IMG/VR virus record: IMGVR_UViG_3300030618_000475
Coordinates: 1-26,966 of that record
Strand: one strand, 5' to 3'
Length of the DNA: 26,966 bases
Source of the DNA: a virus
Shown here: positions 11,852-26,841 of the stretch, in pieces
How positions within the stretch are numbered: the stretch's first letter is position 1
Layout: each line of letters opens with the position of its first letter
Program-made: the position numbers and the translations under genes
The notes under the pieces: generated by a model
Told to the model about the DNA's origin: nothing
The model's input: the letters and a program-made list of their open reading frames with translations, nothing else
The model's database searches: none

Positions 11852-14326
11852 TTAGCTGTGTTGCAAGGCGACCACAGCTACGAGAGTCTCGTAACCGAGT
11901 GGGTTGGCGAAGCCGATTACCTCGCCAGTGCCGACTGGCGGGGAACCTGCGACTGGGCTGCCCCCAATTTCGTAGGTGACCAAGTAGTGAGCTTCAGAGC
12001 CCACCAGCTTGCCGTTGGAGATGATGTTCATTCCTGCGGCACCCGTAGCGTTTGCCGTGTTGATGGCCTCGGCTGCGGCGATGGTGACCGATCCGTTGCG
12101 AGCCAGCGCACGTCCATTGAGGGTTCCACCGTCCAGCGTGATCGACGTGTAAGCGATAATCGTACCGACCATCGTGTTGTTGTCGCCCACCTGCGTGAAG
12201 GAACTACCCACGATCCAGATAACGTTGCCAGCTTGGGCACCGTTAGCCAAGAGGACGGATGCACCGCTCTCAAGTGTGGTCGTTGAACCAGCGATGAACA
12301 CGAAGGTCGCATTCGGGTTACCCTGTGCATCCAGCGTGATGCTCGTTGGGATGTCCATCGAGGAACCAGCAGAGTAGACGCCAGCGGAATAGCGGCTTGC
12401 GCCCAAGTTGCCCAGAGTCGAAAGGTTGGCCGACGATGCGCTGAGTACCGTTGCAGGCAGTCCAGCGAAGTAGTTGTACGCGGACGTTGCAGCGACCTGA
12501 GCCGCAGGAGCGTCAGCGTTGTCCACTGTCCACACAGCAGCACCCGGCACGATGGTCGTGGTCGGGGATGAGCCAACTACGCCGCCCGTGACCACGGTCA
12601 CACCAGTATTGGTGATGCCGCTGCCAGCGAGGATCGAGTAGCTTCCAGCCGATCCCAGTTGCCCGCTGGTATTGATTGCCGAGCCTTCACCAGCGCCCAA
12701 GCCGTTCGCGCTCTTCTGAAGACCGACCGCGATGATTAGATCATTGGCCTGCGTTGTTTGGAAAGCTGGTGCAACCGCAGGGTTAGCGGATGATAGGCCG
12801 ACTGAAACCCCATCCAACGATACGCCCGTCATGTTCGTCCAGTCAATGACTTGGAAGTTGATGCCGCCATCGAATACTGGCTTACCAGCCGCCAGATCAA
12901 GTGGAGCCGTCACACCGTCCTGATAGACGGAATTGAGGTTCACGGCGTAAGTGCCTGCGTTTGCGGAGTAGCAAGCCCAGATGTAGAGACTCGGGTAGTA
13001 ACCGTCGAGGCTCCAGTCTGCGGCAGGCCACGAGGAGTTAGGAGCGGGAGGAATTGAGTATCCGCTGTAATCCGCGTCCGCGAGGTTGATGTGTGCCAAA
13101 AGCACCCAGTTGTTGACGATAGCGGTGCCCGTGCCAGCGGTTGTCGTGATAGCTGTTGCCGACGCGATAGTGACCGCCCCGTCGCCCCCACCTACGGCAA
13201 GAGCACGCCCGTTGAGGGTGCCGCCGCCAAGGGTGATGGATGTATAGGCGAGGATGACGCCGACCATGTTCGATGAGATACCATTCCAAACAGAGGTGAA
13301 GGAGCTTCCGACGACCCAGACCACGTTCGCAGCTTGTGCGCCGTTTGCGAGGATGATAGATGCACCGCTCTCAAGGGTGACAGTCGAAGCTGCGATGAAC
13401 ACAAACAAAGCGTTCGGGTTGCCCTGAGCATCGAGGGTGATCGAAGTCGGGATGTCCAAAGTACCGCCAGAGAAGACACCTGCGTGGTAGACGCCTACTC
13501 CACCACCACCATTGTTGGTGCTGAGGTTAGCGAGACCAGTCTGGGTGGGGGTTAATCCACTGTAATAGGTGAATGCTGCATTGCCCGCAGTGCGTGCTGC
13601 ACCCGCGCTGGCATTATCAATTGCTGCTGGAGGAACGAACGTGAAGCCCGCCTCAGGACCAGTTGTCGGGGCAGAACCGATGTTGCCGCCAGAGACTACG
13701 GATGCGCCCGTGTTCGTGATACCCGCATAGGCGAGGATGGCATACTCTGACGCCGAGCCCAACTCAGCGGTGACCGCATTGGGGCTATTGCCGCCGTTCG
13801 AGGTGTCCGAGATTGTCGGAGCCGTGGGCATGAAGTCGTTCAAGCCCTGAAGGTAGCCGAAACTCGGGGATGCGCCATGAAGCTGATCGAATGGATCGAG
13901 GCTCTTGAGGCCGAATGCGATGGCAATGAGGGTATCGCCAGCCTGCGGGCTCACGTAGACGTTATCGCCTTGGTTGCTGGACTGGAGTTTCTCGACCTTG
14001 GAGGCGTACTGCGAAGGATTGCCGTACCCAACGGATATCTGAGCCTGCCCTGCGGCAACTACAGCGGTGCTGTAGCGGTTGTTGAGGGTAAGGGTGGTCG
14101 CGGAGGACTGCACGCACACGAATTCGCCGTTGTTATTGAGGGCGGCGAAGCCAGTGATGTTGAAAGCCTTGCCTGCGTAAGCGCCGTTCGGCTGCGATGC
14201 CGTGGCTGCCCCGCCAGTGATGGTTCCTGTGTAGACTGTGGTGCCAGTGGTCGCCCCGGGATAGGGGAGAACTGATGCGGCAACCTGAGTCAGTGTAAAA
14301 ATTGGACCGATTGTTGGTACGCCCAT
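11852..14326 (-). CDS. Jelly-roll virion-like protein with two DUF3494 ice-binding-like domains
   Basis: An 824-residue all-beta protein with two copies of the DUF3494 (bacterial/fungal ice-binding, IBP-1) domain, at residues ~189-396 and ~557-756. Each starts LGSA..Y.IL and holds DIPTSITLDAQGNPNA, FVFIA.ST.TLESGAS, LANGAQA.NV.W.VGSSFT, MVG.I.AYTSITL.GGTLNGRALA. The remaining segments (~1-180, ~400-550, ~760-824) read as one interrupted jelly-roll domain: AGDTLIAIAFGLKS, then ISDTSNGGN broken from NNWVLLAHIN, then SLYIWACYSANAG, QVIDWTNMTG, QANDLIIAVGLQKS, and finally KLVGSEAHYLVTYE and YETLVAVVALQHS. There is no signal peptide, so surface display on the virion (decoration or fibre) is more likely than secretion. 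DUF3494 members bind ice or act as adhesins; true ice binding here is untested. The ATG is preceded by AAGGAA, and the gene has its own terminator. Confidence 0.88.
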   Translation of the reverse strand: MGVPTIGPIFTLTQVAASVLPYPGATTGTTVYTGTITGGAATASQPNGAYAGKAFNITGFAALNNNGEFVCVQSSATTLTLNNRYSTAVVAAGQAQISVGYGNPSQYASKVEKLQSSNQGDNVYVSPQAGDTLIAIAFGLKSLDPFDQLHGASPSFGYLQGLNDFMPTAPTISDTSNGGNSPNAVTAELGSASEYAILAYAGITNTGASVVSGGNIGSAPTTGPEAGFTFVPPAAIDNASAGAARTAGNAAFTYYSGLTPTQTGLANLSTNNGGGGVGVYHAGVFSGGTLDIPTSITLDAQGNPNALFVFIAASTVTLESGASIILANGAQAANVVWVVGSSFTSVWNGISSNMVGVILAYTSITLGGGTLNGRALAVGGGDGAVTIASATAITTTAGTGTAIVNNWVLLAHINLADADYSGYSIPPAPNSSWPAADWSLDGYYPSLYIWACYSANAGTYAVNLNSVYQDGVTAPLDLAAGKPVFDGGINFQVIDWTNMTGVSLDGVSVGLSSANPAVAPAFQTTQANDLIIAVGLQKSANGLGAGEGSAINTSGQLGSAGSYSILAGSGITNTGVTVVTGGVVGSSPTTTIVPGAAVWTVDNADAPAAQVAATSAYNYFAGLPATVLSASSANLSTLGNLGASRYSAGVYSAGSSMDIPTSITLDAQGNPNATFVFIAGSTTTLESGASVLLANGAQAGNVIWIVGSSFTQVGDNNTMVGTIIAYTSITLDGGTLNGRALARNGSVTIAAAEAINTANATGAAGMNIISNGKLVGSEAHYLVTYEIGGSPVAGSPPVGTGEVIGFANPLGYETLVAVVALQHS

Positions 14327-14448: not shown

Positions 14449-15060
14449 ATGACCCCAAAAACACCGAAAAAGTGGAAACTCGAAGACCTCCCACTAGCTG
14501 TTCGACAGGCAAAGTCGTGGACGGGAGCGTGCCTTGCTTTGGGGTTAAAGGCCAATAACGGGGCAAATTTGAAGAAATGGGTCGTACAATTGGGGCTTAG
14601 TACAGATCATTTCACAGGTGAGTGGCGAAGTCGTCGTAAATTAAGTGATGCGGAGGTTTTTTGCCAAGACTCTAAGCACGTATGGGCGGCTAAGAATCGG
14701 TTTTACAAACAGACACCAGACACTTGTATGCTCTGCGGACAGGGGACAATTTGGAATGGTAGACCCTTACGGTTTCAAATTGACCATAAAAACGGCGATG
14801 GCGGTGATTGTCGCCGAGAAAACCTACAGAAAATTTGCCCCAACTGTCACACTCAAACCGACACGTATTGTGGACGAAATCGGGTTGCCACGGATGGGAC
14901 TTACAGCAAAATTAACGGTCAAACAATTTGGTGTAACGGGTGTTGCCAGTGGCTTGTTCCCGACATGTTTGGAAATAAGGCTAGTATGCCAAACGGCAAG
15001 CAATCTCGATGTGCGTCCTGCATGGAGCCGAAAACAGAGGGGGCATCGAGTGGGGCGTAA
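14449..15060 (+). CDS. HNH endonuclease
   Basis: A 203-residue protein. The N-terminus (residues ~8-55: WKLEDLPLAVRQAKSWTGAC and onward) looks like a small helix-turn-helix specificity domain. The HNH core follows at ~100-145: CMLCGQG, then FQIDHKNGDGGD with the catalytic His, NLQKICPNCHTQTD with Asn, His and the second Cys pair. The last 45 residues form another zinc module, WCNGCCQWL...FG......G....CASC, which closely matches the start of the next gene's product. HNH genes of this layout are usually mobile homing-type nucleases in phages, though DNA-processing roles exist. It overlaps the next gene by 11 bases and leads the long plus-strand operon. Confidence 0.88.
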   Translation: MTPKTPKKWKLEDLPLAVRQAKSWTGACLALGLKANNGANLKKWVVQLGLSTDHFTGEWRSRRKLSDAEVFCQDSKHVWAAKNRFYKQTPDTCMLCGQGTIWNGRPLRFQIDHKNGDGGDCRRENLQKICPNCHTQTDTYCGRNRVATDGTYSKINGQTIWCNGCCQWLVPDMFGNKASMPNGKQSRCASCMEPKTEGASSGA

Positions 15061-15487
15061 AAGACTCTTCAACGACAAAACAAAATGGTGTCGGAAGTGT
15101 GAAAAGTGGCTCGTCTTGTCGGCTTTTGGCCTCAACAAACGCACCGCCAGTGGCCGCTCCTACTACTGCCGCACCTGCCACAACACCTATTGTGGGACGT
15201 TTTGGACGAAAGTTCACACCTATGACGCCTTCCTCGAACGCGAATACCACATGCACCCGGGTCAGTACCTCGACCTTTGGCGGGCTCAGGATAAAAAGTG
15301 CCCGATCTGTGACTTGGCGTTGGTATTGTATAACAGGAAGACTTTGGTGGATTTCCGCGATGGGCGGGTCCATGGGCTGTTGTGTGCCGACTGCATGGAG
15401 GGACTGAAGAAGCTGAAAATCTCCCCCGAGTTGCTTGCGAAAGCCATTCAGTATCTCAAACCGATTAGTATGGGAGTCACGCCGTGA
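15050..15487 (+). CDS. Endonuclease VII-like protein, catalytic residues altered
   Basis: A 145-residue protein of the recombination endonuclease VII family (T4 gp49 type), which resolves branched DNA before packaging. It starts at GTG 15050, with GAGGGGG just upstream and overlapping the HNH stop; the same frame is open much further upstream, but that part is a shadow of the HNH gene. An N-terminal zinc knuckle (WCRKCEKWL, then YYCRTC) precedes the family core: LWRAQDKKCPICDLAL, then VDFRDGRVHGLLCADCMEGL. The family usually has a 'DHDH...G..RGLLC..CN' core. Here the DHDH is DFRD and the Asn after the last Cys is Met, so the metal and catalytic residues are largely missing while the zinc Cys remain. 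It may be inactive, regulatory, or use other residues. Confidence 0.8.
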   Translation: MGRKRLFNDKTKWCRKCEKWLVLSAFGLNKRTASGRSYYCRTCHNTYCGTFWTKVHTYDAFLEREYHMHPGQYLDLWRAQDKKCPICDLALVLYNRKTLVDFRDGRVHGLLCADCMEGLKKLKISPELLAKAIQYLKPISMGVTP

Positions 15488-16191
15488 GCGACGTAGCACT
15501 CGTAATCATCTGTACAGGCACCGCCTACTGGAAATTTACCCAAGCGGCGGTCGATTCGGTGCGTGCGTTCTTTCCCGCCGACATCCTTCTGTTCACGGAC
15601 AATCCTCAGCAGTTTCCCGTCGCCAAGCAGGTGATGCACCCGCATCCCGGATGGCCGAACGCCACACTGATGCGATTCCATACCATATTGAGCCAGCGGG
15701 AATGGCTGTCCCAGTACAAGTACGTTTTCTACATGGACGTGTGCATGAACATGATGAGCCCGATAGCTGCGGCGGAAGTCCTCTCTGACGGCATCACGGC
15801 TTGCGTACACGCCTCGTTCGAATTGAGCAAGGGGCGTTACTGCACTCCCGAGGAGAACCCGAAGTCCACCGCCTACCTCAGTAAGAGGGACATCCGTAAG
15901 ATGTACATTGGCGGTTTCTGGGGCGGACCAACTGAGAAAATCTTGAGCATGGCGGAAACGATCAGCAAGAGGATCGATATCGACACCGCCAACAACTTTA
16001 TCGCCACATGGCATGATGAGTCGCACATCAATCGCTATTTCTACGAATTCCCGCCGACGAAGGAATTGGACTTGCCGTACAACAACTGGACTAAAACTCC
16101 TGACATCAAAATCTGGCGTGTCCCCAAGGGTACGCCCAACCGCCCGGCCGTGAACGGGGTGCAGCCATTTGAACAGAGGAATTTGCCATGA
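15484..16191 (+). CDS. GT6-family glycosyltransferase (ABO blood-group type)
   Basis: A 235-residue retaining alpha-1,3-Gal/GalNAc transferase-like protein starting at GTG 15484 (GTGA overlap with the previous stop). The family signature is clear: YKYVFYMDVCMNM at ~78-90 in place of the nucleotide-sugar DXD loop, MYIGGFWGGPTEKI at ~140-153, and TANNFIATWHDESHINRYF at ~168-186, matching the 'A.WHDESHLN.Y' of human ABO and GGTA enzymes. The DXD loop reads D-V-C. Vertebrate members have DVD and need manganese, whereas bacterial members are known with NXN and are metal-independent. GT6 transferases usually add Gal or GalNAc to a fucosylated galactose, and a GT11 alpha-1,2-fucosyltransferase-like gene lies two genes downstream. 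Donor and acceptor remain unknown. Confidence 0.88.
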   Translation: MSDVALVIICTGTAYWKFTQAAVDSVRAFFPADILLFTDNPQQFPVAKQVMHPHPGWPNATLMRFHTILSQREWLSQYKYVFYMDVCMNMMSPIAAAEVLSDGITACVHASFELSKGRYCTPEENPKSTAYLSKRDIRKMYIGGFWGGPTEKILSMAETISKRIDIDTANNFIATWHDESHINRYFYEFPPTKELDLPYNNWTKTPDIKIWRVPKGTPNRPAVNGVQPFEQRNLP

Positions 16192-16883
16192 AGGTGCTGG
16201 TAGCGATCTTGGCTTGCCATAGGTACGTCGGTATGCCGGGTAAAGGCTGGGATTGGACGAATAGGATGAAGCACAATTCCATCCCCGTAGACGTACAGAT
16301 CGCGGCGTGCCGTGAGACTTGGGTCAAGGATTTTGCAGCTTACCCCAATGTCGATGTGAGGTTCTTCTATGGGCGCGGAGCGAATCGACAGCCGCTACCC
16401 GATGAAGTGTTTTTGGACGTTCCAGATGACTACAAAAGCCTGCCGTACAAGACAAGAGGCGTGTGCCAATGGTCAGGGGAGCGCCAATACGATTTCATCT
16501 TCAAGACTGATGATGACACCTTTGTTTGGGTGGATCGCCTGATGAAGAGCGGGTTTGAGGCTTACGACTATGTGGGTTCCGCCAGCGTTCATACACCTCA
16601 AAACCTTTACGTGACTGGACTAGGGTACTGGTTGAGCGCAAGGGCCGCTAGGTTGGTCGCAGCCGCGCAACCAAACAATACATTAGAGGATCACTGGGTG
16701 GGGTCGGTGATGCGTAAAGCTAGGATCATTCCAAAGCATGATACGCGGTATCATCCCATAGCTGGCAAATTCGTAGGCGTAGCCGCGATGCCGAGGAATT
16801 CCGAGTTTATCGCCGTTCATCCGTGCGATCCTACTATGATGCGTACCTACGCTCAGGAGTTGAAAATCCATGGTGACAGTTAA
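16188..16883 (+). CDS. GT31-like glycosyltransferase
   Basis: A 231-residue protein of the beta-1,3-galactosyltransferase-like (GT31) superfamily. Visible family elements are MKVLVAILACHR at the N-terminus, CRETWVKDF at ~41-49, DVRFFYGR at ~56-63, DEVFLDVPDDYKSLPYKT at ~72-89, the FKTDDDTFV metal site at ~105-113, GLGYWLS at ~144-150 and EDHWVG at ~167-172. These inverting enzymes transfer Gal, GlcNAc or similar sugars. There is no transmembrane anchor, unlike Golgi members, so it should be cytosolic. It is the first and most canonical of four paralogues in the operon. It overlaps the GT6 gene by four bases and the next gene by 14. Confidence 0.87.
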   Translation: MKVLVAILACHRYVGMPGKGWDWTNRMKHNSIPVDVQIAACRETWVKDFAAYPNVDVRFFYGRGANRQPLPDEVFLDVPDDYKSLPYKTRGVCQWSGERQYDFIFKTDDDTFVWVDRLMKSGFEAYDYVGSASVHTPQNLYVTGLGYWLSARAARLVAAAQPNNTLEDHWVGSVMRKARIIPKHDTRYHPIAGKFVGVAAMPRNSEFIAVHPCDPTMMRTYAQELKIHGDS

Positions 16884-17640
16884 TTTAATGGGAGGGTTGG
16901 GGAATCAGCTTTTCCAATACGCCTACAGTAGAGCACTCGCAGCGCAGGGTCGCGAGGTCTATCTCACGAACATACAGGTTGTCAATGTTACGGACCACCG
17001 CATCTATTCTCTAGACGGTTTCAATACTATCGTCAAGCTCCACAACCCCCCGCCTATTGGGGCAGCGCCACTCTACGAGAGCGGACTACCCTTTGACGAG
17101 AGAATGCTTAACATCCCCGAACCTACCATCGTCTACGGCTATTTTCAAACAGAAAAGTATTTCCTAAACATCGAAGACTCAATTCGTAAAGAATTGACCC
17201 TGAAATCCTCGCTGAGTGAAAAGGCTCAAGCAATTGCCAAGGAGATTCAAAGCTGTGAAAGCATCTCCCTCCATGTACGCCGAGGCGACTATCTGCAATT
17301 GCTCGCATTTCATGGAATGGTGGAACCAACGTATTACACGGCAGCCATTGGTACAATCTCACAAAAGGTTTCCAACCCCAAGGTCTTCATCTTTTCCGAT
17401 GACCCGAAATGGTGTGAGGATAACCTGACTGGGACGGTCATTGAAACGGGAAGCAAGTTTGAAGACCTCCACTTGATGTCCCTCTGTCGTCACAACGTGA
17501 TCGTGAACAGTTCTTTCAGTTGGTGGGGTGCGTGGCTGAATCCGAACCCAGATAAAATCGTCGTGGCACCTAAACGATGGTTTTCTGCAAAGGATTTAGA
17601 CAGTCGAGACATCATACCTGACGGGTGGATTAAAATATGA
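16870..17640 (+). CDS. GT11 alpha-1,2-fucosyl/colitosyltransferase-like protein
   Basis: A 256-residue GT11 protein, about the usual length for short bacterial members. Motifs in order are [19 protein letters not shown] at ~5-23, LHVRRGDYL at ~135-143 (the GDP-binding Arg motif), [11 protein letters not shown] at ~168-178 and [12 protein letters not shown] at ~213-224. The family transfers L-fucose from GDP-fucose to O-2 of galactose (FutC, WbsJ); one characterised member, WbgN, transfers colitose. Both donors derive from GDP-mannose through the 4,6-dehydratase encoded immediately downstream. AGGAG (16855-16859) lies 10 bases upstream of the ATG, inside the preceding gene. Confidence 0.92.
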
Positions 17641-18635
17641 AGGCTCTAATTACAGGAATAACGGGGCAGGATGGTTCATACTTGGCGGAACTTCTGCTGG
17701 AGAAGGGCTACGAAGTCCACGGTGTCATTCGTCGATCAAGCAGTTTCAACACTGGACGAATTGACCACATTTTTGATCGTCTCCACCTCCACTACTGCGA
17801 TTTGACTGACGGTAGTGCCCTGAGTCGGTTGGTGGGGGAAATTCAACCCGATGAGGTGTACAACTTGGGAGCACAGAGCCATGTGCGCGTTAGCTTCGAC
17901 ATCCCCGAGTACACTGCCGATGTAGATGCTTTGGGGACGCTACGGCTTCTCGAAGCAATCAAGGCACAGTGCCCTACGGCCAAATTTTATCAAGCATCGT
18001 CCAGTGAATTGTTCGGAAAGGTGCTGGAAGTGCCGCAGACTGAAAAGACCCCATTCTATCCTCGGAGTCCTTACGGTATTGCCAAGCAGTTTGCATTTTG
18101 GACGACCGTGAACTATCGTGAAATGGGCATGTTTGCCTGCAACGGCATCCTGTTCAACCATGAGTCTCCTCGGCGTGGCGAAACCTTCGTATCGCGCAAG
18201 ATTACCAAAGCAGCGACGAGGATCAAGGTGGGACTCCAAAAGGAACTCTTGCTGGGAAACCTTGACGCTAAACGTGACTGGGGATATGCTAAAGATTACG
18301 TGGAAGCCATGTGGCTCATGCTACAGCAACCCACCCCCGAGGATTTCGTTATTGCCACGGGAGAAACACACACGGTGCGGGAGTTTCTGGATGAGACATT
18401 TGAATATCTGGGACTGGACTGGAACAAGTACGTGGGGATCGATCCGAAATACTATCGCCCCACAGAAGTAGATATCCTACTCGGGGATGCATCCAAGGCA
18501 AAAAGGATGCTGGGTTGGGAACCCCAGTGGAAGTTTCGAAATTTAGTCCGCATGATGGTTGACGCGGACATGGCGGACGCTCGCAGAGAATGTGGGCCTA
18601 ATGGTGGAAATCCTTACGAATGGGACTGGCAATGA
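17637..18635 (+). CDS. gmd: GDP-mannose 4,6-dehydratase
   Basis: A 332-residue extended short-chain dehydrogenase that converts GDP-D-mannose to GDP-4-keto-6-deoxy-D-mannose, the entry point for GDP-fucose, GDP-rhamnose, GDP-perosamine and GDP-colitose. The NADP-binding [17 protein letters not shown] is at ~5-21 and [17 protein letters not shown], typical of Gmd, at ~29-45. The active site shows [10 protein letters not shown] and the Y-x-x-x-K of SPYGIAK. The family core [20 protein letters not shown] is at ~169-188, and [14 protein letters not shown] follows. The length is normal and every key motif is intact, so activity is likely. It overlaps the GT11 gene by four bases. Confidence 0.96.
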
Positions 18636-19645
18636 CAACGACTCAAATGCTTAACCTCTTAATTCATGATGCTGAAGAAGCTCTAAGCGTGGTTGATTAT
18701 AAACCACTCGATGGCGCTCGTGTTTTTATTTCGGGGGCTACGGGGTTAATCGGTATGCACCTCCTGACGATTCTCTATGTCCTCAAACGGGAGGGGTACA
18801 AGATTGAGGGTTTCGGACAGTACCACAGCGAACCCGCGCCGTACACCAAAGAGCTTGCGACCCTTGCTGGGTTCGATCTTTATCACGATTCAATGAAGGT
18901 GCCTCAAACAGATGTTATCATCCACTCAGCGGGGTACGGTCAACCCATGATTTTCATGGCTAACCCCGCAGCGACCATTCTTGTAAACACAGCCGTTACA
19001 GAACGGCTGTTGGAATCCCTCAACTCGGGGGGTCGTTTCCTTTTTGTGAGTTCCAATGAAGTTTACCACGGTCTACACAAGGAGTTCGCTACGGAAGAAG
19101 ACATTGGAACCACCACCCCCTACCATCCACGAGCGGGCTACATTGAGGGAAAGCGGAGCGGCGAAGCAATTACTCACTCCTACCGTAAGAACGGTGTTAA
19201 CGCGGCGTCTGCCCGCCTCAACCTGACCTATGGCCTCGGCGCTCGTAAGGGTGACAAACGAGCCCTAAGCGGATTTATCGATCAAGCAGTAACAGCCAAT
19301 CACATCGAGATGAAATTTTCAGGTAAAGAGATGCGGACATGCTGCTACGCTAAAGACGTTGCGACGATGTTGTGGAGGGTTATCCTTCACGGCACAAAAC
19401 CCGTTTACAACGTTGGCGAGCGTTCCACAACCAGTATCGCCGAATTAGCAACCATCGTTGCTCGGCTTACAGGGTCAACGATTCAAATTCCAGAGGAGGA
19501 TAAGGAACTGCCCGGTTCTCACGCCCTGCCTCGGATGGACATCTCTCTAATGGAGGCTGACTTAGGAAAGACCGAGTACACCACTCTGGAAGAGGGTCTG
19601 AAGAGAACAATCGCGTGGCATAGGGGGCTACATGAATCACTTTAA
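18632..19645 (+). CDS. NAD(P)-dependent nucleotide-sugar epimerase/reductase (SDR)
   Basis: A 337-residue extended short-chain dehydrogenase. ATG 18632 overlaps the gmd stop (ATGA) and is preferred over ATG 18620. The Rossmann motif is [15 protein letters not shown] at ~31-45. The catalytic region shows VSSNEVYHG and Y-I-E-G-K ([15 protein letters not shown]), and a substrate-binding [17 protein letters not shown] segment follows. It resembles UDP-glucuronate decarboxylase/dTDP-glucose dehydratase relatives rather than classical GDP-fucose synthase. With gmd, the cupin epimerase and the PLP enzyme next to it, the likely role is C4 reduction (or dehydration) of a keto sugar. The exact substrate cannot be read from sequence. 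Confidence 0.87.
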
Positions 19646-20180
19646 GGTAGAAGACGAGAAGTTTGGCGGGCGTGTGAAGTTGATATCCTCAACCTGTTTT
19701 GAGGATAGTCGCGGCTTTTTTAACATCACTTACCTCGATGACGAGATGAAAGAAATGGGTCTCCCGCCGTTTGTCCGCGATCTCCACTCCCGCTCCATGA
19801 AGGACGTAGTTCGAGGGCTGCACTTTCAGTCTACACCACCCATGGCAAAGCTGATGCGTGTTCCACGCGGTAGAGTTTTTATGGTGACGGTTGATGTTAA
19901 CCCACAATCCCCCACGTTCCTACAATACTACAGCCTCATTATGGAGGAGGGGGACAAACTTCAGCTTTGGGGTGAGGCGGACATTGCTCGGGGTTTCTGT
20001 GCTTTAGAGGATTACTCCGAGGTGCAGTACAAGTGCTCGGGGCATTTCAATAAAGCATTCGATGACGCAATCCTGTGGGATGATCCTGTTATCGGCATCG
20101 ACTGGCCTGTAAAAGATCACCCCATCTTGTCGGATAGGGATCGACACGCCGTAACCGCGAAGGAGTTTTTCCACCTATGA
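19632..20180 (+). CDS. RmlC-like nucleotide-sugar 3,5-epimerase (cupin)
   Basis: A 182-residue protein of the dTDP-4-dehydrorhamnose 3,5-epimerase family. Family features are EDSRGFF at ~24-30, the catalytic VVRGLHFQ with His64, LMRVPRGRVFMVTVDVNPQSPTF at ~74-96 (shown as a region), Y133 in VQYKCSG, and DPVIGIDWP followed by SDRD with D170. The usual His of the F-x-H-G-F strand is Arg at ~120 (DIARGF), which may alter substrate choice. In this context it would epimerise C3/C5 or C5 of a GDP-4-keto-6-deoxy or 3,6-dideoxy sugar rather than a dTDP sugar; no rmlA or rmlB is present. It overlaps the SDR gene by 14 bases and the PLP enzyme gene by four. Confidence 0.88.
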   Translation: MNHFKVEDEKFGGRVKLISSTCFEDSRGFFNITYLDDEMKEMGLPPFVRDLHSRSMKDVVRGLHFQSTPPMAKLMRVPRGRVFMVTVDVNPQSPTFLQYYSLIMEEGDKLQLWGEADIARGFCALEDYSEVQYKCSGHFNKAFDDAILWDDPVIGIDWPVKDHPILSDRDRHAVTAKEFFHL

Positions 20181-21349
20181 GGCCCATAACTCTAGGAAAT
20201 CTGGACATCAGTACGAAGGGCAAGCAGTACGTCAACGATGCCCTAAATAACAATCGCCTATCAAAGGGTGAGTACACTCTTGCCTTTGAGAAGGGGTTTG
20301 CTGATTTGCACGGGTCAAAGCACGGCATTTTTATGAATAGCGGCACCAGTGCCCTACAGGTTGCGCTCGCGGCCCTCAAAGAAGTCCACGGCTATCAGGA
20401 TGGGGACGAAGTGATCGTTCCCGCGATCACGTTCATCGCTACCAGCAATATCGTCATCCAAAATAACATGAAGCCCGTCTTTGTGGACGTTGACCCCCTT
20501 ACCTTTAATCTAAACCCCGCGAGGGTCGAAGAGGCCGTTACCCCCCGCACACGCTGTATCATTCCAGTTCATCTGTTTGGGCTGCCCGCTGATATGACCG
20601 CTATCATGGAAATTGCGAGTAGGTGCGGGCTTCAGGTAATCGAGGATTCCTGCGAGACAATGTTTGCGAACCTAAACGGTCAGTCTGTTGGGTCTTTCGG
20701 TGACTTTGGTTGTTTTTCCACCTATGTCGCACACCTGATTGTCGGCGGTGTGGGTGGTATCGTAACGACCAGCAACACGGAGCTTGACGGACTTTGCCGT
20801 AGCTTGATGGCACACGGACGTGACAGTATCTACACAAACATTGATGACGATGACAACCCCGAATCAATTGAACTCTCAAAGCAAATCATCGAGAGACGCT
20901 ATCGTTTTGAACGTGTGGGCTACTCCTATCGCGCTACGGAACTGGAGGCTGCCATAGCCCTGAGCGAGTTGGAACGTTGGGAAGAAAACATCCTAACCCG
21001 CCGTACTAATGCATCCGAACTGACGAGTCTGTTGAGCGATATCCCCGAGCTACAGCTACCCGTCGTGCCTGAGGGGTATCAGCATTCGTTTATGATGTAT
21101 CCCATGGTGCTCGATGTCTCCGGTAGGGATAAACTCCTGATGTACTTGGAAGAGCGGGGCATTGAGACACGCTATCTCTTTCCCCTCCTTAGCCAACCGA
21201 TCTATCAGAAATTGTTCCCGGGTGAAGCGGCCAATCACCCAGTCGCAGAGCATCTGGCTAAGAATGGTTTCTTCATCGGTATGCATCAGGGCTTGACCTC
21301 AAGCGACATACACTACGTTTCAGAGGTTTTGCACGAGTACCTAAAATGA
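20177..21349 (+). CDS. DegT-family PLP enzyme with His for Lys (ColD-like 3-dehydratase type)
   Basis: A 390-residue fold-type I PLP protein of the DegT/DnrJ/EryC1/StrS family. Visible are NSGTSALQVALAAL at ~54-67, VPAITFIATSN at ~81-91, D157 in VIEDSCE (pyridine-nitrogen Asp), and FSTYVAHLIVGGVGG at ~180-194. At the position of the Schiff-base Lys (usually S....K....GEGG) stands His186. His at this place is the mark of the sugar 3-dehydratases ColD and the E1/RfbH group, which remove O-3 instead of transferring an amino group; E. coli ColD is of near-identical length with His188. Because gmd, which makes the ColD substrate, lies upstream, a GDP-4-keto-6-deoxymannose 3-dehydratase is the best guess. 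Similar His variants of unknown role also exist. Confidence 0.87.
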   Translation: MRPITLGNLDISTKGKQYVNDALNNNRLSKGEYTLAFEKGFADLHGSKHGIFMNSGTSALQVALAALKEVHGYQDGDEVIVPAITFIATSNIVIQNNMKPVFVDVDPLTFNLNPARVEEAVTPRTRCIIPVHLFGLPADMTAIMEIASRCGLQVIEDSCETMFANLNGQSVGSFGDFGCFSTYVAHLIVGGVGGIVTTSNTELDGLCRSLMAHGRDSIYTNIDDDDNPESIELSKQIIERRYRFERVGYSYRATELEAAIALSELERWEENILTRRTNASELTSLLSDIPELQLPVVPEGYQHSFMMYPMVLDVSGRDKLLMYLEERGIETRYLFPLLSQPIYQKLFPGEAANHPVAEHLAKNGFFIGMHQGLTSSDIHYVSEVLHEYLK

Positions 21350-22038
21350 CGCCAGAAACTTTCGAACAGAATTTTCAGAAACTTTGTAGTGAGTCTCAAG
21401 CTGACGGGCGGTTCACTCCCTCCCGCGATATTTGGTCTCCTCGGTTAGACGAGGACACGCAACAACTGACTTGGGACCAACACTACATCTATCACACGGG
21501 GTGGGCATCCCGCGTGCTCGCTGCTACCCGACCAGCTAAACACATCGATATTGCATCCTTGAATTTTTGGGCTGTGGCGGTGTCGGCCTTCATTCCCATG
21601 GAGTTCTATGAGTTTCGCCCTATGCCCTGTAAGGGATTGTCCAGTTTTGTTTGCGGTGAGGCCAACCTTACGTCGCTTCCGTTTGCCGACAATTCAATAG
21701 ATTCCCTTTCAAGCCTTCACACCCTTGAGCACATCGGATTGGGCAGGTATGGAGACGCGGTGGATGCTTCGGGGGACAGAAAAGCGGCGGCGGAATTAGT
21801 CCGCGTCTTAGCGCCGGGGGGTCAATTACTCATGGCTGTTCCTTGCGGAAAACCACGTCTCATTTACAACATGGGGAGAGTTTATTCGTACCAGATGGTG
21901 GTGGACATGTTTTATCCCCTCAAAGTGGCCGAGTTTGCCCTATGGACTGATGATCCGCAGGAATTTATTCTCAACGCCGATCCCGCCCTCGTAGCAAAAT
22001 GTGAAGGCGGGTGTGGTTGTTGGAGGTTTGTAAAATGA
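21346..22038 (+). CDS. DUF268 methyltransferase-like protein
   Basis: A 230-residue protein of the DUF268 type, seen in polysaccharide gene clusters and built like a class I SAM methyltransferase. The diagnostic stretch is SLSSLHTLEHIGLGRYGDAVD (residues ~125-145), followed by AAAELVRVLAPGGQLLMAVP, the post-fold strand/helix of methyltransferases, and an R-x-Y region. A clear glycine-rich SAM motif I is missing; the equivalent strand is IDIASLNFW. A sugar methyltransferase role is plausible from context only. It overlaps both neighbours by four bases. Confidence 0.82.
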   Translation: MTPETFEQNFQKLCSESQADGRFTPSRDIWSPRLDEDTQQLTWDQHYIYHTGWASRVLAATRPAKHIDIASLNFWAVAVSAFIPMEFYEFRPMPCKGLSSFVCGEANLTSLPFADNSIDSLSSLHTLEHIGLGRYGDAVDASGDRKAAAELVRVLAPGGQLLMAVPCGKPRLIYNMGRVYSYQMVVDMFYPLKVAEFALWTDDPQEFILNADPALVAKCEGGCGCWRFVK

Positions 22039-22739
22039 AAGTTCTAATCGCCATCATCTCCTTTCAGGGAGATGCTGAAAACGGAAATCACGACAAGATT
22101 CGACAGACTTGGGGTAAAGACGTTGCCCCCGCTGGCGCAGACCTACGCTTCTTTATAGGTCGCCGCGACAAATTCTATCAACCGAAACCCGACGAAACGC
22201 TGATCCCTTGGCAAGAAGACGGTACGCGGACCTGCCAGCATCCGTATTGGCACGCGGAGCCGGGGTGTACCTGTGTAGAATACTGGCAAGTCCTGTATCG
22301 GGGGATTCTGGACTGGTCTATTCGCAACGGGTACGACCACACCTTCCTCGCCGAAAATGACACTTTCCTCGTCCCGCGTAAGTTGATGAAACTCGGTTTT
22401 GAGAACTATGATTTTTCTGGCTGGATGATGTACGTTCACGCAGACAAGCCCGATTATTACTACGCGGAACCCGGTGGGTATTTCCTTTCACGACGGGCGG
22501 CTGAGGCCGTATTGAAAACAACCCCCGACCATTTGCACTTTGAAAACCTTGTTTGTGATGTGTTGAGACCTATGGCTGAGCGGGGGGAGATGGCGATCAA
22601 ATCCCTTGACCATTTTTGGAATGAGACTTCTTGGCATTACCGAGCGCAGGGGATTATAGACCCAGTGATTAGGGATGGCTACCCCGTGGGTTCTCCTTGG
22701 ATGTTCGACATGTATAAGAAACACGGAGCAGATCAATGA
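22035..22739 (+). CDS. GT31-like glycosyltransferase, divergent metal site
   Basis: A 234-residue paralogue of the GT31-like proteins in this operon, started at ATG 22035 (ATGA overlap); an ATG at 22011 lies inside the previous gene. It keeps MKVLIAIISF, IRQTWGK, DLRFFIGRRD and a GGYFLSRRAAEAV segment. The DXD site reads E-N-D-T-F at ~107-111. A Cys-containing insertion (CQHPYWHAEPGCTC) is shared in position with a Cys-rich stretch of the next gene, and NETSWHYRAQGIIDPV at the C-terminus matches AAAWHYREEGIADPV there. It is most closely related to that next gene, so they are probably a local duplication. Confidence 0.82.
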   Translation: MKVLIAIISFQGDAENGNHDKIRQTWGKDVAPAGADLRFFIGRRDKFYQPKPDETLIPWQEDGTRTCQHPYWHAEPGCTCVEYWQVLYRGILDWSIRNGYDHTFLAENDTFLVPRKLMKLGFENYDFSGWMMYVHADKPDYYYAEPGGYFLSRRAAEAVLKTTPDHLHFENLVCDVLRPMAERGEMAIKSLDHFWNETSWHYRAQGIIDPVIRDGYPVGSPWMFDMYKKHGADQ

Positions 22740-23206
22740 AAGTTTTAGTTGCTGTTTATTCACATACGGGGGATTCCGTCAACGGGAACCACCAAAAGAT
22801 TCGTGAGACTTGGGGTGGGCACCTAGCGCCTTGGGACCTTCGCTTTATGATAGGGCATCGAGACGCACCCGGTTGGAAGGCCGTATCGGATGAAGTGCTG
22901 CTACCTGAGCGAGCCAATCGTGCTTGCGGTGCTGACTGGCTGCTTTGGAACCTGTACTACCAAGAATTGACTATTGAGATGCTTCGTTGGTCCTTAGAAC
23001 AGGGCTATGATTTCACGTTTCTCTGCTGCAATGACACATTCGTTGTTCCGAGCAAGCTTAAGACAACGGATTTTGTAAAGTACGATTATTCGGGGGTCTT
23101 TTATCCCCCCCCCTCGACCGTGCACCGCTGGGAGAGACTTTCGATGAACCCTTCTATAAGCGCCCAGCTTATGCAGCGGCGGATGCGGGCACTGGGTGGT
23201 TCATGA
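22736..23206 (+). CDS. GT31-like glycosyltransferase, N-terminal part before C9 frameshift
   Basis: This frame encodes residues matching the first ~125 of the upstream paralogue (MKVLVAVYSHTGDSVNGNHQ, KIRETWGG, DLRFMIGHRD, CCNDTFVVPSKL, VKYDYSGVFYPP). At 23105-23113 it enters a run of nine C. After the run this frame reads STVHRWERLSMNP and on to a stop at 23206, sequence with no likeness to the family. In the -1 frame the family sequence continues directly: PPLDRAPLGETFDEPFYKR, PAYAAADAGTGWFMSRKASE. The intact product would be about 239 residues, matching the 234 of the paralogue. It may be a phase-off state, a slippage-expressed gene, or an error of one missing C in the assembly. Confidence 0.75.
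   Translation: MKVLVAVYSHTGDSVNGNHQKIRETWGGHLAPWDLRFMIGHRDAPGWKAVSDEVLLPERANRACGADWLLWNLYYQELTIEMLRWSLEQGYDFTFLCCNDTFVVPSKLKTTDFVKYDYSGVFYPPPSTVHRWERLSMNPSISAQLMQRRMRALGGS
23105..23113 (+). repeat. C9 homopolymer at the frameshift point
   Basis: Nine consecutive C follow TAT (TTTTAT then C9 then TCG). The frame before the run and the family-like frame after it differ by -1, so C10 (or C7) would restore one continuous gene. Runs of C or G of this length are the usual slippage sites in phase-variable surface-glycan genes, and also common assembly-error sites. Confidence 0.95.
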
Positions 23207-23451
23207 GTCGTAAGGCATCGGAGTTGGTTGTCAACAGCAACCAAGACGACTATTTTGGCACTAGCGACCAGTACGTGGGGCAGGTTTTGGGGCCGTATAT
23301 CAAATCGGGGGAAATCACCGCCAAGAATCTAGATAATTTTCATCATGCAGCCGCTTGGCATTACCGAGAAGAGGGAATTGCCGACCCCGTTACTGGGTAT
23401 TCGAGCACCTCCAATTGGATGCGCGGTATGTACGAGGAACACGGGGGATAA
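23203..23451 (+). CDS. GT31-like glycosyltransferase, C-terminal part after frameshift
   Basis: This frame carries the C-terminal ~113 residues of the split gene. It is open back to the C9 run, although its first ATG is at 23203 (MSRKASELVV). The sequence upstream of that ATG in the same frame (ETFDEPFYKRPAYAAADAGT, GWF) is family-like, so an independent 82-residue protein from 23203 is unlikely to be functional. The end, DNFHHAAAWHYREEGIADPV, corresponds to the C-terminus of the upstream paralogue. Read with 22736-23206 it forms one GT31-like gene. Confidence 0.7.
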   Translation: MSRKASELVVNSNQDDYFGTSDQYVGQVLGPYIKSGEITAKNLDNFHHAAAWHYREEGIADPVTGYSSTSNWMRGMYEEHGG

Positions 23452-23452
23452 A

Positions 23453-24466
23453 ATGTCCGAAGGTAAAACGTACAAACCCGTGATTTATGCCAACTACGAA
23501 TTGAACGTTCCCGAGCTAAATTGGAAAACGTCTATCTCGGTGGACTGTTTCAATCTTGCCGATACCACCCCGTACAAAGTTTTTTGGCAGCTTGAGCCGG
23601 AAGACATTATCCCGACAGAGGAGAGGCTCATTAAGAACCACAAGTTCTATGATTTGATTTTGACCGACAACAGTCGCGTGCTCAGCAAATGCCCCAACGC
23701 CGTCCTCTTCTCTAACAATGGGGTTTGGACTAAAGAAAGCGACACGTCGCAAAAAAAGTTTCAAGTCTCTTTTTTAACCAGCGCGAAAACCATGTGTGCT
23801 GGACATAGATTTCGCATTGCAACTTTCAAAGAGCTACAACAATGGTTGGGGGATGGAGGTGAGTTACCCCTTCCCGTCAAAATGCACATGTCGCCGCCTT
23901 ACCTACAGGACAAGCGCGACATGCTGGTGCCTTTTCAGTATGCGATTTCGATTCAAAACTCCCAACAACCCAATTACTTCTCGGAAATTCTTTTGGACTG
24001 TTTTGCCACGAAAACAATTCCGATTTTTTGGGGTTGTGCAAACATTGGGCAGTTTTTCAACTTGGATGGCGTACTGTCCTTTAGCGACGTTTCCCCCAGT
24101 GATACCACGGCAACGAGGCTCAAAGGGATTTTGGGTTCCCTGACACCCGATTTCTATCACTCATCAAAGGTACAGGCGGCAGTAGAAGAAAACTATCGGA
24201 AGGCTCTTGCATATAAAGATCGCATTGGGCTCTTGGTGGGGGCTATTACCACCAATAGAAAATTAAGATGCGAATGGGCATCAGAACTTTACAAGGCCGT
24301 AGGTACGGGCATTCCCGACTGGTGGGGTTCGACAGGCCAAGATTGTCACGAGCCCGCTACCATGCAGTGGGAAGCGGATCAACCACCCGCGTTGGTTGGG
24401 CGGGGTTTTTGTTTCGACCATTTCGTGATTATTCGATCAGCAGTCACTAAGGGTGATTGGAAATGA
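23453..24466 (+). CDS. GT10-family fucosyltransferase-like protein
   Basis: A 337-residue protein started at ATG 23453, with GGGGGA just upstream; an in-frame ATG at 23345 lies inside the previous gene. The GT10 (alpha-1,3/1,4-fucosyltransferase, Lewis-type) core is at ~160-200: PFQYAISIQNSQQPNYFSEI, LLDCFATKTIPIFWGC, corresponding to the family's 'F.IA.ENS...Y.TEK..DA...G.IPIYWG'. A GHRFRI segment at ~117-122 and a KFQVSFLTSAK segment before it are typical of phage and bacterial members. The usual Glu-Lys of the 'TEK' is Glu-Ile here. The donor would be GDP-fucose or a related GDP-6-deoxy sugar, consistent with gmd in the same operon. Confidence 0.83.
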   Translation: MSEGKTYKPVIYANYELNVPELNWKTSISVDCFNLADTTPYKVFWQLEPEDIIPTEERLIKNHKFYDLILTDNSRVLSKCPNAVLFSNNGVWTKESDTSQKKFQVSFLTSAKTMCAGHRFRIATFKELQQWLGDGGELPLPVKMHMSPPYLQDKRDMLVPFQYAISIQNSQQPNYFSEILLDCFATKTIPIFWGCANIGQFFNLDGVLSFSDVSPSDTTATRLKGILGSLTPDFYHSSKVQAAVEENYRKALAYKDRIGLLVGAITTNRKLRCEWASELYKAVGTGIPDWWGSTGQDCHEPATMQWEADQPPALVGRGFCFDHFVIIRSAVTKGDWK

Positions 24467-25257
24467 AAATCAGCTTAGTTATGCCGACCCACAATCGTGC
24501 AAAATATGTCCCGATGGCGATTCGGTGTTTCTATCAGCAGGGTTATCCCGATCTAGAGCTTATCATCGTGGATGATGGGACCGAGCCCTTGACCATTCCC
24601 AACGATGATCGAATACGGTATATTCATTTGACCGCCCGTACAACAACGGGGGCTAAGAGAAATCTGGGTGCGGAAAATGCCACGAGTGAAATCATCGCTA
24701 ATTGGGATGACGATGACTGGAGCCATCCTCACAGGATAGAGGACGAAGTTCGGCGTCTTCATAATTCGAGGAAGTCCGTTACGGGGTACAACCAGACTGT
24801 GATTTATGAGGTGACTCATAAAAAGTTCATGTTGAACTTGGGGGGACCCCCATACCTTGCTTCGGGCACCAGCCAAATGTACTGGAAACAGTGGTGGAAG
24901 CAGCACCAGTACCCGAACGTGTCCTTTGGGGAGGATAGTGTTTTTGCTAGAGAAGCCCGTCTCGCGGATCAACTAGCGATTGCTCCCGTGGGAAAAATGA
25001 TGGTCGCCCTGCGGCACGGGCGTAATACGGACAATTACCCCTTCCCGCATAATGGTTCGGGGCACTACCGGGCGTTGCAACCCCATGAAGTGCCACACCT
25101 TTTTCTTGAGGCGATTGGTCAATTATCGCCAACACCGCAGTATATGCAGATTCCCCACGTCTGTAATGAGGATTGCAGATCGAACGCCGAAGTCCAATTT
25201 GGGGCACCAACCGTAGAGTATAAAACCACCCACATCCCGGAGATTCACACCAGATGA
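24463..25257 (+). CDS. GT2-family glycosyltransferase
   Basis: A 264-residue inverting GT-A glycosyltransferase, started at ATG 24463 (ATGA overlap); ATG 24457 is two codons upstream in frame. Typical features are ISLVMPTHNRAKYVPMAIRCF at ~3-23 (nucleotide-binding start), LELIIVDDGTEPL at ~30-42, TTGAKRNLGAENATSEIIA at ~61-79 and the DXD motif in NWDDDDWSHPHRI at ~80-92. FGEDSVFAREAR at ~152-163 holds the probable catalytic acidic pair. The C-terminus carries HVCNEDC and no membrane segment, so the enzyme should be cytosolic. The sugar added cannot be read from the sequence. Confidence 0.88.
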   Translation: MKISLVMPTHNRAKYVPMAIRCFYQQGYPDLELIIVDDGTEPLTIPNDDRIRYIHLTARTTTGAKRNLGAENATSEIIANWDDDDWSHPHRIEDEVRRLHNSRKSVTGYNQTVIYEVTHKKFMLNLGGPPYLASGTSQMYWKQWWKQHQYPNVSFGEDSVFAREARLADQLAIAPVGKMMVALRHGRNTDNYPFPHNGSGHYRALQPHEVPHLFLEAIGQLSPTPQYMQIPHVCNEDCRSNAEVQFGAPTVEYKTTHIPEIHTR

Positions 25258-25895
25258 AAATCTTAGTCGCCATCCTTTCTTGCCATAGGGATCGCTCGAT
25301 CCATCAAGCCCAACGAGACACGTGGTTGAAGGACCTAAAGGACGTGGATTATCGCTTTTTCCTCGGGAGACCTGCGGGGCAACCAGAAAGTGATGAAGTG
25401 TTTCTCGATGTCGATGACGGATATCTCGGCCTTTCCCATAAAACCAGAGCGATGTGCGCGTGGGCGCACGGGTGTGATTACGATTTTATACACAAGACCG
25501 ATACGGATACCTTAGTCAATCCGTGGACTTTCTTGCACAGCGGCTTCGAACAACATGACTACATGGGGGGTGAGAATGCCGACAGAGTGCCCACTTGGGG
25601 AAATAGGACCGTGCAGTTTGCCAGCGGCGGGGCTGGGTATTGGTTGAGTAAAAAAGCCATGGCAATCGTCGCAAGCACCGAGGTAATGACGAATGCCGAG
25701 GATGTGTTTGTGGCGATTGCGCTGCTGAATAAAGGAATTCTACCCGTTTGGCACAGGGGCTACAGATGGCGTCCGGGTGAAACGGTGGACAAAGACATGG
25801 TTTCTTTGCATTTCTCCAGTGCGTTGCAGAGAAAGTACGATCCCAAAATGATGTATGAATACTATCAGAAAATTGGAGCAACCAATGGCAGCTAA
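25254..25895 (+). CDS. GT31-like glycosyltransferase
   Basis: A 213-residue paralogue of the protein at 16188-16883. It shares MKILVAILSCHRDRSIHQAQ, RDTWLKDL, DYRFFLGRP, DEVFLDVDDGYLGLSHKTRA, the metal site HKTDTDTLV at ~80-88, GGAGYWLSKKA and AEDVFVA, the equivalent of EDHWVG. The DXD motif is intact (DTD). It overlaps the GT2 gene upstream by four bases and the next GT2 gene by 11. It is likely a cytosolic inverting hexosyltransferase; donor and acceptor are unknown. Confidence 0.85.
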   Translation: MKILVAILSCHRDRSIHQAQRDTWLKDLKDVDYRFFLGRPAGQPESDEVFLDVDDGYLGLSHKTRAMCAWAHGCDYDFIHKTDTDTLVNPWTFLHSGFEQHDYMGGENADRVPTWGNRTVQFASGGAGYWLSKKAMAIVASTEVMTNAEDVFVAIALLNKGILPVWHRGYRWRPGETVDKDMVSLHFSSALQRKYDPKMMYEYYQKIGATNGS

Positions 25896-26841
25896 AGTTT
25901 CCATCATCATTCCGTGCTACAACCTCGCACAGTACCTCCCGCAGGCCATCCAGTCGGCGCTCGCTCAGGATTACGATAACGTTGAGGTGATCGTGGTGGA
26001 CGATGGTTCGACGGATAATTCACTCGCCGTCGCCTTAGGCTACAAAGAGATGGTGGATGGTCAGCACGCCGCATCGCCGACCATGAAAGTCATATCGCAG
26101 GAGAACATGGGACTCTCCTACGCGAGGAACACGGGGATCAATGTCTCGACAGCGGAGCCGCACGAGTTCATTCTCCCGCTCGATGCCGATGATTGGATAG
26201 ACCCTAGCTATCTGAAAAAGACGGTGCCCCTGATGCAGGGTACACGTGTGGCTGTCGTGGGCACCCTCGTCGCCTGTTTCGGGATAAAGGACTACATCTG
26301 GCGTACATACTCACCGACCCTTGAGCAACTCAAAACCGACAATTCAATCCCCGTTTGTTCGTTGATTCGACGTAGCGTGCTTCAAGAAGTCGGCGGGTAC
26401 AACCCCGCTCTAAGCGGATACGACAAGGAACACATCGGATACGAGGACTGGAACCTGTGGCTAGACATTGCGGAGCGTGGCTGGCGGTTTGTTATCGTCC
26501 CCGAGCCACTATTTCACTACCGTGAGAGACCCGACTCGATGCATAGAAAGACATCGACCCCTAACAGACAGAAATTGATTGCGAGAATTAAGTCGCTTCA
26601 CCCCGATCTTTGGCCGGTCGAAGCGGCAGCGGCGATACTACCGCCAGAGCAGCCCGCAGCCCCGAGACCCACACCCCCACCACCGACCATGGAGCAAAAG
26701 ATGGCATCGCCCGCCCGTAAAGCACAAACGGCACAGGTGTACAGGGCAGCGTCGGGGGCTCTTTTGGGACACGTGAAGCCGAGTCAAGGGGCTTTGTACC
26801 GCAATAATAGGGGCACAGATAGCCGAAGGAAGATCAAATGA
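25885..26841 (+). CDS. GT2-family glycosyltransferase with Pro-rich basic tail
   Basis: A 318-residue protein started at ATG 25885, with GGAG (25875-25878) six bases upstream. The catalytic part (~1-250) has VSIIIPCYNLAQYLPQAIQS, VIVVDDGSTDNS, SYARNTGI, the DXD motif in LPLDADDWIDPSYL and the acceptor-site YEDWNLWLDIAERGW (the 'ED' catalytic motif). After ~255 there is an unusual tail: a Pro-rich linker (PPEQPAAPRPTPPPPT) and a basic, Ala/Ser/Arg-rich end (ARKAQTAQVYRAASGALLGH, then YRNNRGTDSRRK) not found in ordinary GT2 enzymes. The tail could anchor the enzyme to nucleic acid or to a virion protein; this is inference. Confidence 0.88.
   Translation: MAAKVSIIIPCYNLAQYLPQAIQSALAQDYDNVEVIVVDDGSTDNSLAVALGYKEMVDGQHAASPTMKVISQENMGLSYARNTGINVSTAEPHEFILPLDADDWIDPSYLKKTVPLMQGTRVAVVGTLVACFGIKDYIWRTYSPTLEQLKTDNSIPVCSLIRRSVLQEVGGYNPALSGYDKEHIGYEDWNLWLDIAERGWRFVIVPEPLFHYRERPDSMHRKTSTPNRQKLIARIKSLHPDLWPVEAAAAILPPEQPAAPRPTPPPPTMEQKMASPARKAQTAQVYRAASGALLGHVKPSQGALYRNNRGTDSRRKIK

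Follow-up and report, generated by a model that had tools for sequence, protein, structure and literature searches.

The viral contig analyzed here (IMG/VR record IMGVR_UViG_3300030618_000475, positions 1 to 26,966; this whole 26,966-base stretch is referred to as the window) carries a gene-dense operon for glycan synthesis at 15484-26841, in which all genes are on the plus strand and overlap or abut. The operon opens with an ABO-type GT6 glycosyltransferase (15484-16191; PF03414, 1.2e-19, 70.7 bits versus a curated cut-off of 25), a GT31-like transferase with a DDD motif (GT31a, 16188-16883) and a GT11 alpha-1,2 L-sugar transferase (16870-17640; PF01531, 1.5e-32, 113.5 bits versus 23.9). The GT6 catalytic motif WHDESHIN, with the HDES catalytic glutamate, is intact, as is the HxRRxDY motif of GT11 in the form HVRRGDY. 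A phmmer search with this GT11 as query gave no matches at 0.001 among solved structures. Next come genes for GDP-mannose 4,6-dehydratase (gmd, 17637-18635; TIGR01472, 519 bits, above cut-off), a short-chain dehydrogenase/reductase (SDR, 18620-19645) that is putatively a 4-reductase, an RmlC-like 3,5-(or 5-)epimerase (19632-20180), a DegT-fold pyridoxal phosphate (PLP) enzyme that is putatively a ColD/E1-type 3-dehydratase (20177-21349) and a DUF268/methyltransferase (21346-22038).

The remaining genes encode GT31b (22011-22739), in which END replaces DDD, GT31c (22736-23451), split over two frames (22736-23206 and 23203-23451), a GT10-like transferase with an altered donor motif (23453-24466, with the start set at 23453 in an open reading frame (ORF) listed from 23345), GT2a (24457-25257), GT31d (25254-25895) and GT2b (25855-26841). 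Both GT2 genes score above the cut-off of their profiles, as do GT31a and GT31d with the Galactosyl_T/GT31 profile; for 22011-22739 and 22736-23206, which no Pfam profile matches, the GT31-like label derives solely from similarity to the other GT31 genes. A first-pass annotation of the window had listed the same genes, and all were recovered in the same places on the plus strand, with its GT6 and GT11 family calls confirmed by the profile scores and its proposal of several transferases combined with donor synthesis upheld by the gene calls. Its total of nine transferases holds if the split GT31c is counted once, and of its four GT31-like genes two exceed the Pfam cut-off while two rest on mutual similarity, one of these being the frame-split gene.

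The window aligns without gaps at 99.93% identity to positions 93,036-120,001 of a 186,275-base phage contig, G001; these two, together with G002 and G053, are the four window-phage records. Genes of G001 include a tail sheath, a phage-type helicase and a nicotinamide phosphoribosyltransferase. Its terminase shares 41.6% identity with the enzyme from Tunturiibacter phage Tunturi_5, and 29 of its 197 ORFs were matched in the 149 kb of the 309-kb Tunturi_5 genome that were compared, many of them being collinear virion genes. Matches for six G001 ORFs were also found in the cyanophage pieces L093 and L094. By these comparisons the 186-kb phage is related to the Acidobacteriota jumbo phage Tunturi_5, and this likeness suggests that its host is probably an acidobacterium. 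A bacterial O-antigen locus was rejected because the tail sheath, the terminase and virion genes in Tunturi_5 order lie on the same 186-kb contig, which establishes the phage origin assumed in the first-pass annotation.

Recurrent pairing of GT11 with GT6

Searches for GT6 genes yielded 50 viral records; of 50,697 phage records, 71 carried GT6, and these 71 include 60 from Synechococcus and four from Prochlorococcus phages. The viral GT6 scan comprised all matches, and the viral GT11, viral gmd and bacterial GT6 scans comprised the best 80 loci each. GT11 is present in 46 of the 50 viral GT6 records (45 above cut-off) and lies within 3 kb of GT6 in 43 of them, on the same strand in all 43 and within 150 bp in 27. 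With the four window-phage records and the 155-kb phage record G003 set aside, GT11 is within 3 kb in 39 of 45. The control consisted of 50 gmd records, the first among 79 new ones; GT11 occurs anywhere in 16 of these and GT6 in six, five of which have GT11 within about 1 kb, and in the sixth GT6 lies at the end of the contig. The presence of GT11 differs between GT6 records and this control with a Fisher p of 4e-10, a value that treats non-independent records as independent. Among records of at least 20 kb, GT11 was detected in 27 of 28 GT6 records (in one case 34 kb away) versus 16 of 34 gmd records (p 1.8e-5, from hand counts in which related records are again not independent).

Reverse dependence is weak, with GT6 found within 6 kb in 7 of the best 80 GT11 loci, some of which are short. 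Such one-sided dependence of GT6 on GT11 would be expected if GT6 acts on the product of GT11, as in ABO synthesis, and the grouping of GT6 with GT11 in the first-pass annotation is supported by the recurrence of the pair in phages. In bacteria, GT11 is within 3 kb in 40 of the best 80 GT6 loci (33 on the same strand); judged by gene neighborhoods, the pair is therefore general and tighter in phages. GT6, GT11 and a GT10-like gene occur together also in L026, L027 and L097, so the three-family grouping for which the first-pass annotation suggested a search does exist in other phages, yet it is uncommon: Pfam GT10 was detected in six of the 50 viral GT6 records, three of these being window-phage records that score below cut-off.

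In a tree of 119 GT6 sequences, 39 of them viral (short and identical rows were dropped), at least five changes between viral and bacterial are required. Viral GT6 sequences fall in several lineages, and in four groups drawn from the tree, with viral loci outside the tree assigned to the largest, GT11 lies within 3 kb in 4/5, 4/5, 2/3 and 33/37. The window GT6 stands apart from the main viral group. The contig of the nearest bacterial GT6 (L181, from a Planctomycetota metagenome-assembled genome) has no other ORF matching the window set or G001.

Phage sugar clusters with GT6 are already known. T4-like cyanophages P-SSM2 and ACG-2014f have lipopolysaccharide (LPS)-type clusters similar to the window operon, and in P-SSM2 gmd, fcl, GT11 and GT6 are clustered in one region as PSSM2_257, 258, 265 and 268, identified by tblastn. 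This cluster is annotated as epimerases and glycosyltransferases in NC_006883, and its GT6 as glycosyltransferase family 6 in AY939844. The window differs in belonging to another phage lineage and in having GT31, GT10-like, RmlC-like and SDR genes but no detectable fcl. GT6 is mentioned for two cyanophages in passages of PMC3961637, and passages of PMC3037559 describe co-occurrence of genes within cyanophage LPS clusters, stating in 2010 that the function of these clusters was unknown. We found no description of GT11-GT6 pairing in phages or of donor swapping in the literature searched, the scope of which lay outside subscription journals, and the pairing is not described in passages of PMC3961637, PMC3037559, PMC11924767, PMC11987014 and PMC2984593. 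The recurrent GT11-GT6 coupling is the main finding of this study. Since the pair is present in the cultured phage P-SSM2, virion glycans and host LPS are directly examinable.

Donor sugar route

The PLP enzyme has a histidine (His186) where aligned solved relatives carry the catalytic lysine, the same substitution as in the GDP-colitose pathway and one that we take to mark ColD/E1 dehydratases. Histidine was found at this position in 35 of 42 aligned DegT sequences from the loci compared, nine of the 42 being window-phage copies, and in all five other sequences of at least 40% identity (L097, L098, L106, L178 and L179). The SDR is not a GDP-fucose synthase (Fcl), with 35 bits versus a 500-bit cut-off, and a search for Fcl at 1e-15 gave no match in G001, G002 and G053, contigs that are possibly incomplete. 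A His-type PLP dehydratase together with an epimerase and an SDR suggests a GDP-L-sugar similar to GDP-colitose. A GDP-3,6-dideoxy-L-hexose such as GDP-colitose is the likely product predicted from these genes, and the donor sugar here is probably not fucose. The SDR-RmlC-PLP-gmd set is retained with GT11 and a GT10-like gene in L097 and L178/L179.

A comparable combination of Gmd, a His-type PLP enzyme and GT11 is found in the GDP-colitose pathway (Gmd, ColD, ColC) and WbgN of E. coli O55. ColC is bifunctional, whereas in the window epimerase and reductase would be two proteins, the RmlC-like enzyme and the SDR, in place of ColC. According to passages of PMC11987014, the GT11 enzymes WbgN and FUT2 both accept GDP-L-colitose, GDP-L-fucose and GDP-L-galactose.

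Near GT11-GT6 in other phages there are instead Fcl-like genes (for L-fucose) or genes for GDP-mannose 3,5-epimerase (GME; for L-galactose). Donor genes flanking the 50 GT6 loci, with flanks that are often short, are Fcl and Gmd in 16, GME in six, the window set in three (all window-phage records) and Gmd alone in two, with none seen in 23. Fcl-like genes of more than 390 bits are present in 20 of the 50 records, none reaching NCBI's 500-bit cut-off.

We also observed a histidine at the PLP lysine position of ACG-2014f gp225 (L094 9246-10439), which is annotated as an aminotransferase and would therefore probably be a 3-dehydratase. The GME genes of phages G003 and G006 (223 kb) are at 70723-71700 and 209842-210822, respectively, and imply GDP-L-galactose; solved relatives of these enzymes are plant proteins.

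Island borders and exchange

In Tunturi_5, gp346 and gp347 are separated by 110 bp. Their homologs in G001 are at 103444-104139 (reversed) and 122303, and the roughly 18 kb between them contain an ice-binding-like gene, homing-type endonucleases and the sugar island. The left border of this inserted stretch in the window is the gp346 homolog in opposite orientation (10409-11104, minus strand). Two GIY-YIG-type and one HNH-type homing endonuclease genes are located around the island (963-1574, 11154-11759 and 14449-15060) and are a possible means of its exchange.

The ice-binding-like gene (11852-14326, minus strand) encodes an 824-residue protein with two DUF3494 domains, a candidate virion fiber and glycan acceptor. 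Its homolog adjoins the island in G003, G006 and L097, where GT6-GT31a-GT11 is found beside it with the order kept. DUF3494 matches number five in G001, three in G003 and six in G006, and were present in 8 of 23 records tested. A 614-residue protein ending at window 1-618 (plus strand) also has a DUF3494 domain, with an N-terminal match to a tail-fiber PHROG.

No orthologs of the window gmd, SDR, RmlC-like, PLP enzyme and GT10 genes were found in the compared stretches of G003 (80 kb) and G006 (58.5 kb), in which the window gmd matches solely an epimerase gene at about 22% identity. Instead these stretches carry GME, the G003 copy matching a solved enzyme at 2.5e-92 and the G006 copy being 92% identical to that of G003. 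Both G003 and G006 have a GT6 fused to a GT31-like part in one ORF (the G003 fusion was tested with Pfam). The G003 GT6 is 97% identical to the window GT6, whereas P1968 shows about 50-85% identity in G003, depending on the segment. Since identity also reaches 99% in a neighboring gp346-like gene, the GT6 value may reflect recent exchange.

Predicted glycan and its acceptor

Our favored reading, held tentatively and with somewhat less than even confidence, is that the operon is an exchangeable island for glycan synthesis in a large myophage, probably one infecting Acidobacteriota, and that it combines a GDP-L-sugar route with a GT11-GT6 end to make a virion surface glycan. GDP-mannose would be converted to a GDP-L-galacto-type sugar, most likely GDP-colitose (3-deoxy-L-fucose), from which GT11 would transfer the L-sugar alpha-1,2 onto galactose. 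GT6 would then add alpha-1,3 galactose or N-acetylgalactosamine, so that a branched, A/B-like terminus containing a sugar other than fucose would sit on a stem built by the GT31 and GT2 enzymes. We are least sure of the last steps, in which the glycan would be attached to virion surface proteins, such as the ice-binding-like fibers encoded beside the island, and its variation would alter recognition of the particle by host, rivals or grazers. A virion acceptor is slightly favored over the host surface as a candidate because of the position of the island among homologs of virion-module genes, the neighboring fiber-like proteins and the lack of multi-membrane proteins; a crude hydropathy count over the 197 ORFs of the 186-kb contig found none with more than three predicted membrane segments. 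We rejected this lack as proof of virion targeting, given the crude nature of the count.

Chloroviruses glycosylate their capsids using virus-encoded transferases and sugar synthesis, to which the window is similar in both respects. The same two families as in the window act in ABO/H synthesis (FUT2 followed by the GT6 ABO transferases) and are also a point of likeness with bacterial BoGT6a; WHDES is retained in the window, and the order of action would be shared if the enzymes act alike. Differences are the DVC metal motif of the window GT6 and donor genes that are not those of fucose.

Several observations weigh against the virion glycan reading. Since the GT11-GT6 pair is also found in bacteria, the pair alone does not indicate virions, and soluble transferases could act on host lipid-linked glycans as well. 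Solved structures matching the PLP enzyme are led by perosamine synthase (7e-58), ahead of E1 (3bcx, 2e-49) and ColD (3gr9, 1e-41), its best NCBIfam match is RfbH, below cut-off, and the best solved match of the SDR is UDP-glucuronate decarboxylase rather than Fcl. The window GT6 has DVC in place of the DxD (or NxN) donor motif; DVC is shared by the first GT6 of G003, while all other phage GT6 sequences with the motif aligned have DxD, and the best 80 bacterial loci have NAN in 39 and DAD in 27.

The GT10-like gene alone is under the Pfam cut-off (15.2 bits versus 23.9, E 0.017). A nine-sequence profile that includes it matches solved alpha-1,3-fucosyltransferases (2nzw, E 2.3e-17), and a fold search with its structural model (mean pLDDT 66.7) ranks such structures at the top, the TM-scores being no higher than about 0.3, so that the GT10 assignment of the first-pass annotation stands for the gene family by profile, with weak agreement from the predicted fold. 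It does not extend to the donor motif of the window copy, which reads QN...YFSEI instead of EN...YxTEK; the glutamate and lysine replaced here by glutamine and isoleucine are retained in eight of eight other sequences, an alignment from which L098 was omitted because of a stop codon. Finally, GT31c reads as a single gene in two frames past a C9 tract (23105-23113). This tract, of equal length in all four window-phage records, is the only homopolymer of at least 8 in G001, where about 10 are expected under a first-order model, and the break is compatible both with phase-variable switching and with a defective gene. The island may be in partial decay, given DVC in GT6, the changed motif of GT10 and the frameshift in GT31.

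Another possibility, which we regard as real though rather doubtful, is host surface remodeling, where the enzymes would decorate the LPS or capsule of the infected cell against superinfection or grazing, as in phage O-antigen conversion. PHROGs place GT6, GT11 and GT2b in the moron/host takeover class, with GT2b near GtrB-like O-antigen conversion proteins, a host-surface role is proposed for P-SSM2 LPS genes in passages of PMC2984593, and GT11-GT6 pairs are common in bacterial loci. However, the island is located among virion-module homologs, and the 197 ORFs include no flippase-, polymerase-, ligase- or GtrII-like multi-membrane protein by the same crude count on a contig that may be incomplete.

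It is improbable that the island is for the most part spare cargo DNA, or cargo DNA in decay, that does little for this phage. The altered GT6 and GT10 motifs and the GT31c frameshift would be consistent with this, and "stuffer DNA" is raised for cyanophage LPS clusters in passages of PMC3037559, but the other listed genes have open frames, GT6-GT31a-GT11 order is retained in G003, G006 and L097, and GT6 is more alike between G003 and the window than P1968 is, with the caveat of recent exchange given above. The complete fucose-based ABO/H/Lewis set of the first-pass annotation, in which GDP-fucose would serve H, A/B and Lewis fucosylation, is about as improbable: the window does contain GT6, GT11, gmd and a member of the GT10 family, Fcl-like genes below the NCBI cut-off occur in other records and the host could supply Fcl, but the window phage combines the lack of an Fcl match with a dehydratase-type PLP enzyme, substituted GT10 lysine and glutamate, DVC in GT6 and a frameshifted GT31.

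Extended beyond this phage, the virion glycan reading becomes a broader and, taken as a whole, unlikely proposal: that phages repeatedly carry a GT11-GT6 cassette placing an ABO-like end with an exchangeable alpha-1,2 L-sugar (by Fcl/GME/ColD-type swap) on their own virions, with C9 as a possible switch. If true, this would amount to "phage blood groups" with L-fucose, L-galactose or colitose interchangeable, and the existence of three interchangeable donor pathways alongside a single transferase pair would represent natural antigenic variation in phages. Cyanophage-type LPS clusters would gain a specific testable product, an A/B-like branched glycan end, and enzymes for making L-galactose and colitose glycans could be drawn from the cassettes.

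From 26776 onward, GT2b ends in a C-terminal tail, KPSQGALYRNNRGTD, of a type (KPSQGxLYRN...) common to otherwise different transferases, namely GT2b and the GT31-GT6 fusions, and also detected in L097. Its positions are 26776-26841 in the window, 66039-66104 in G003 and 212472-212534 in G006.

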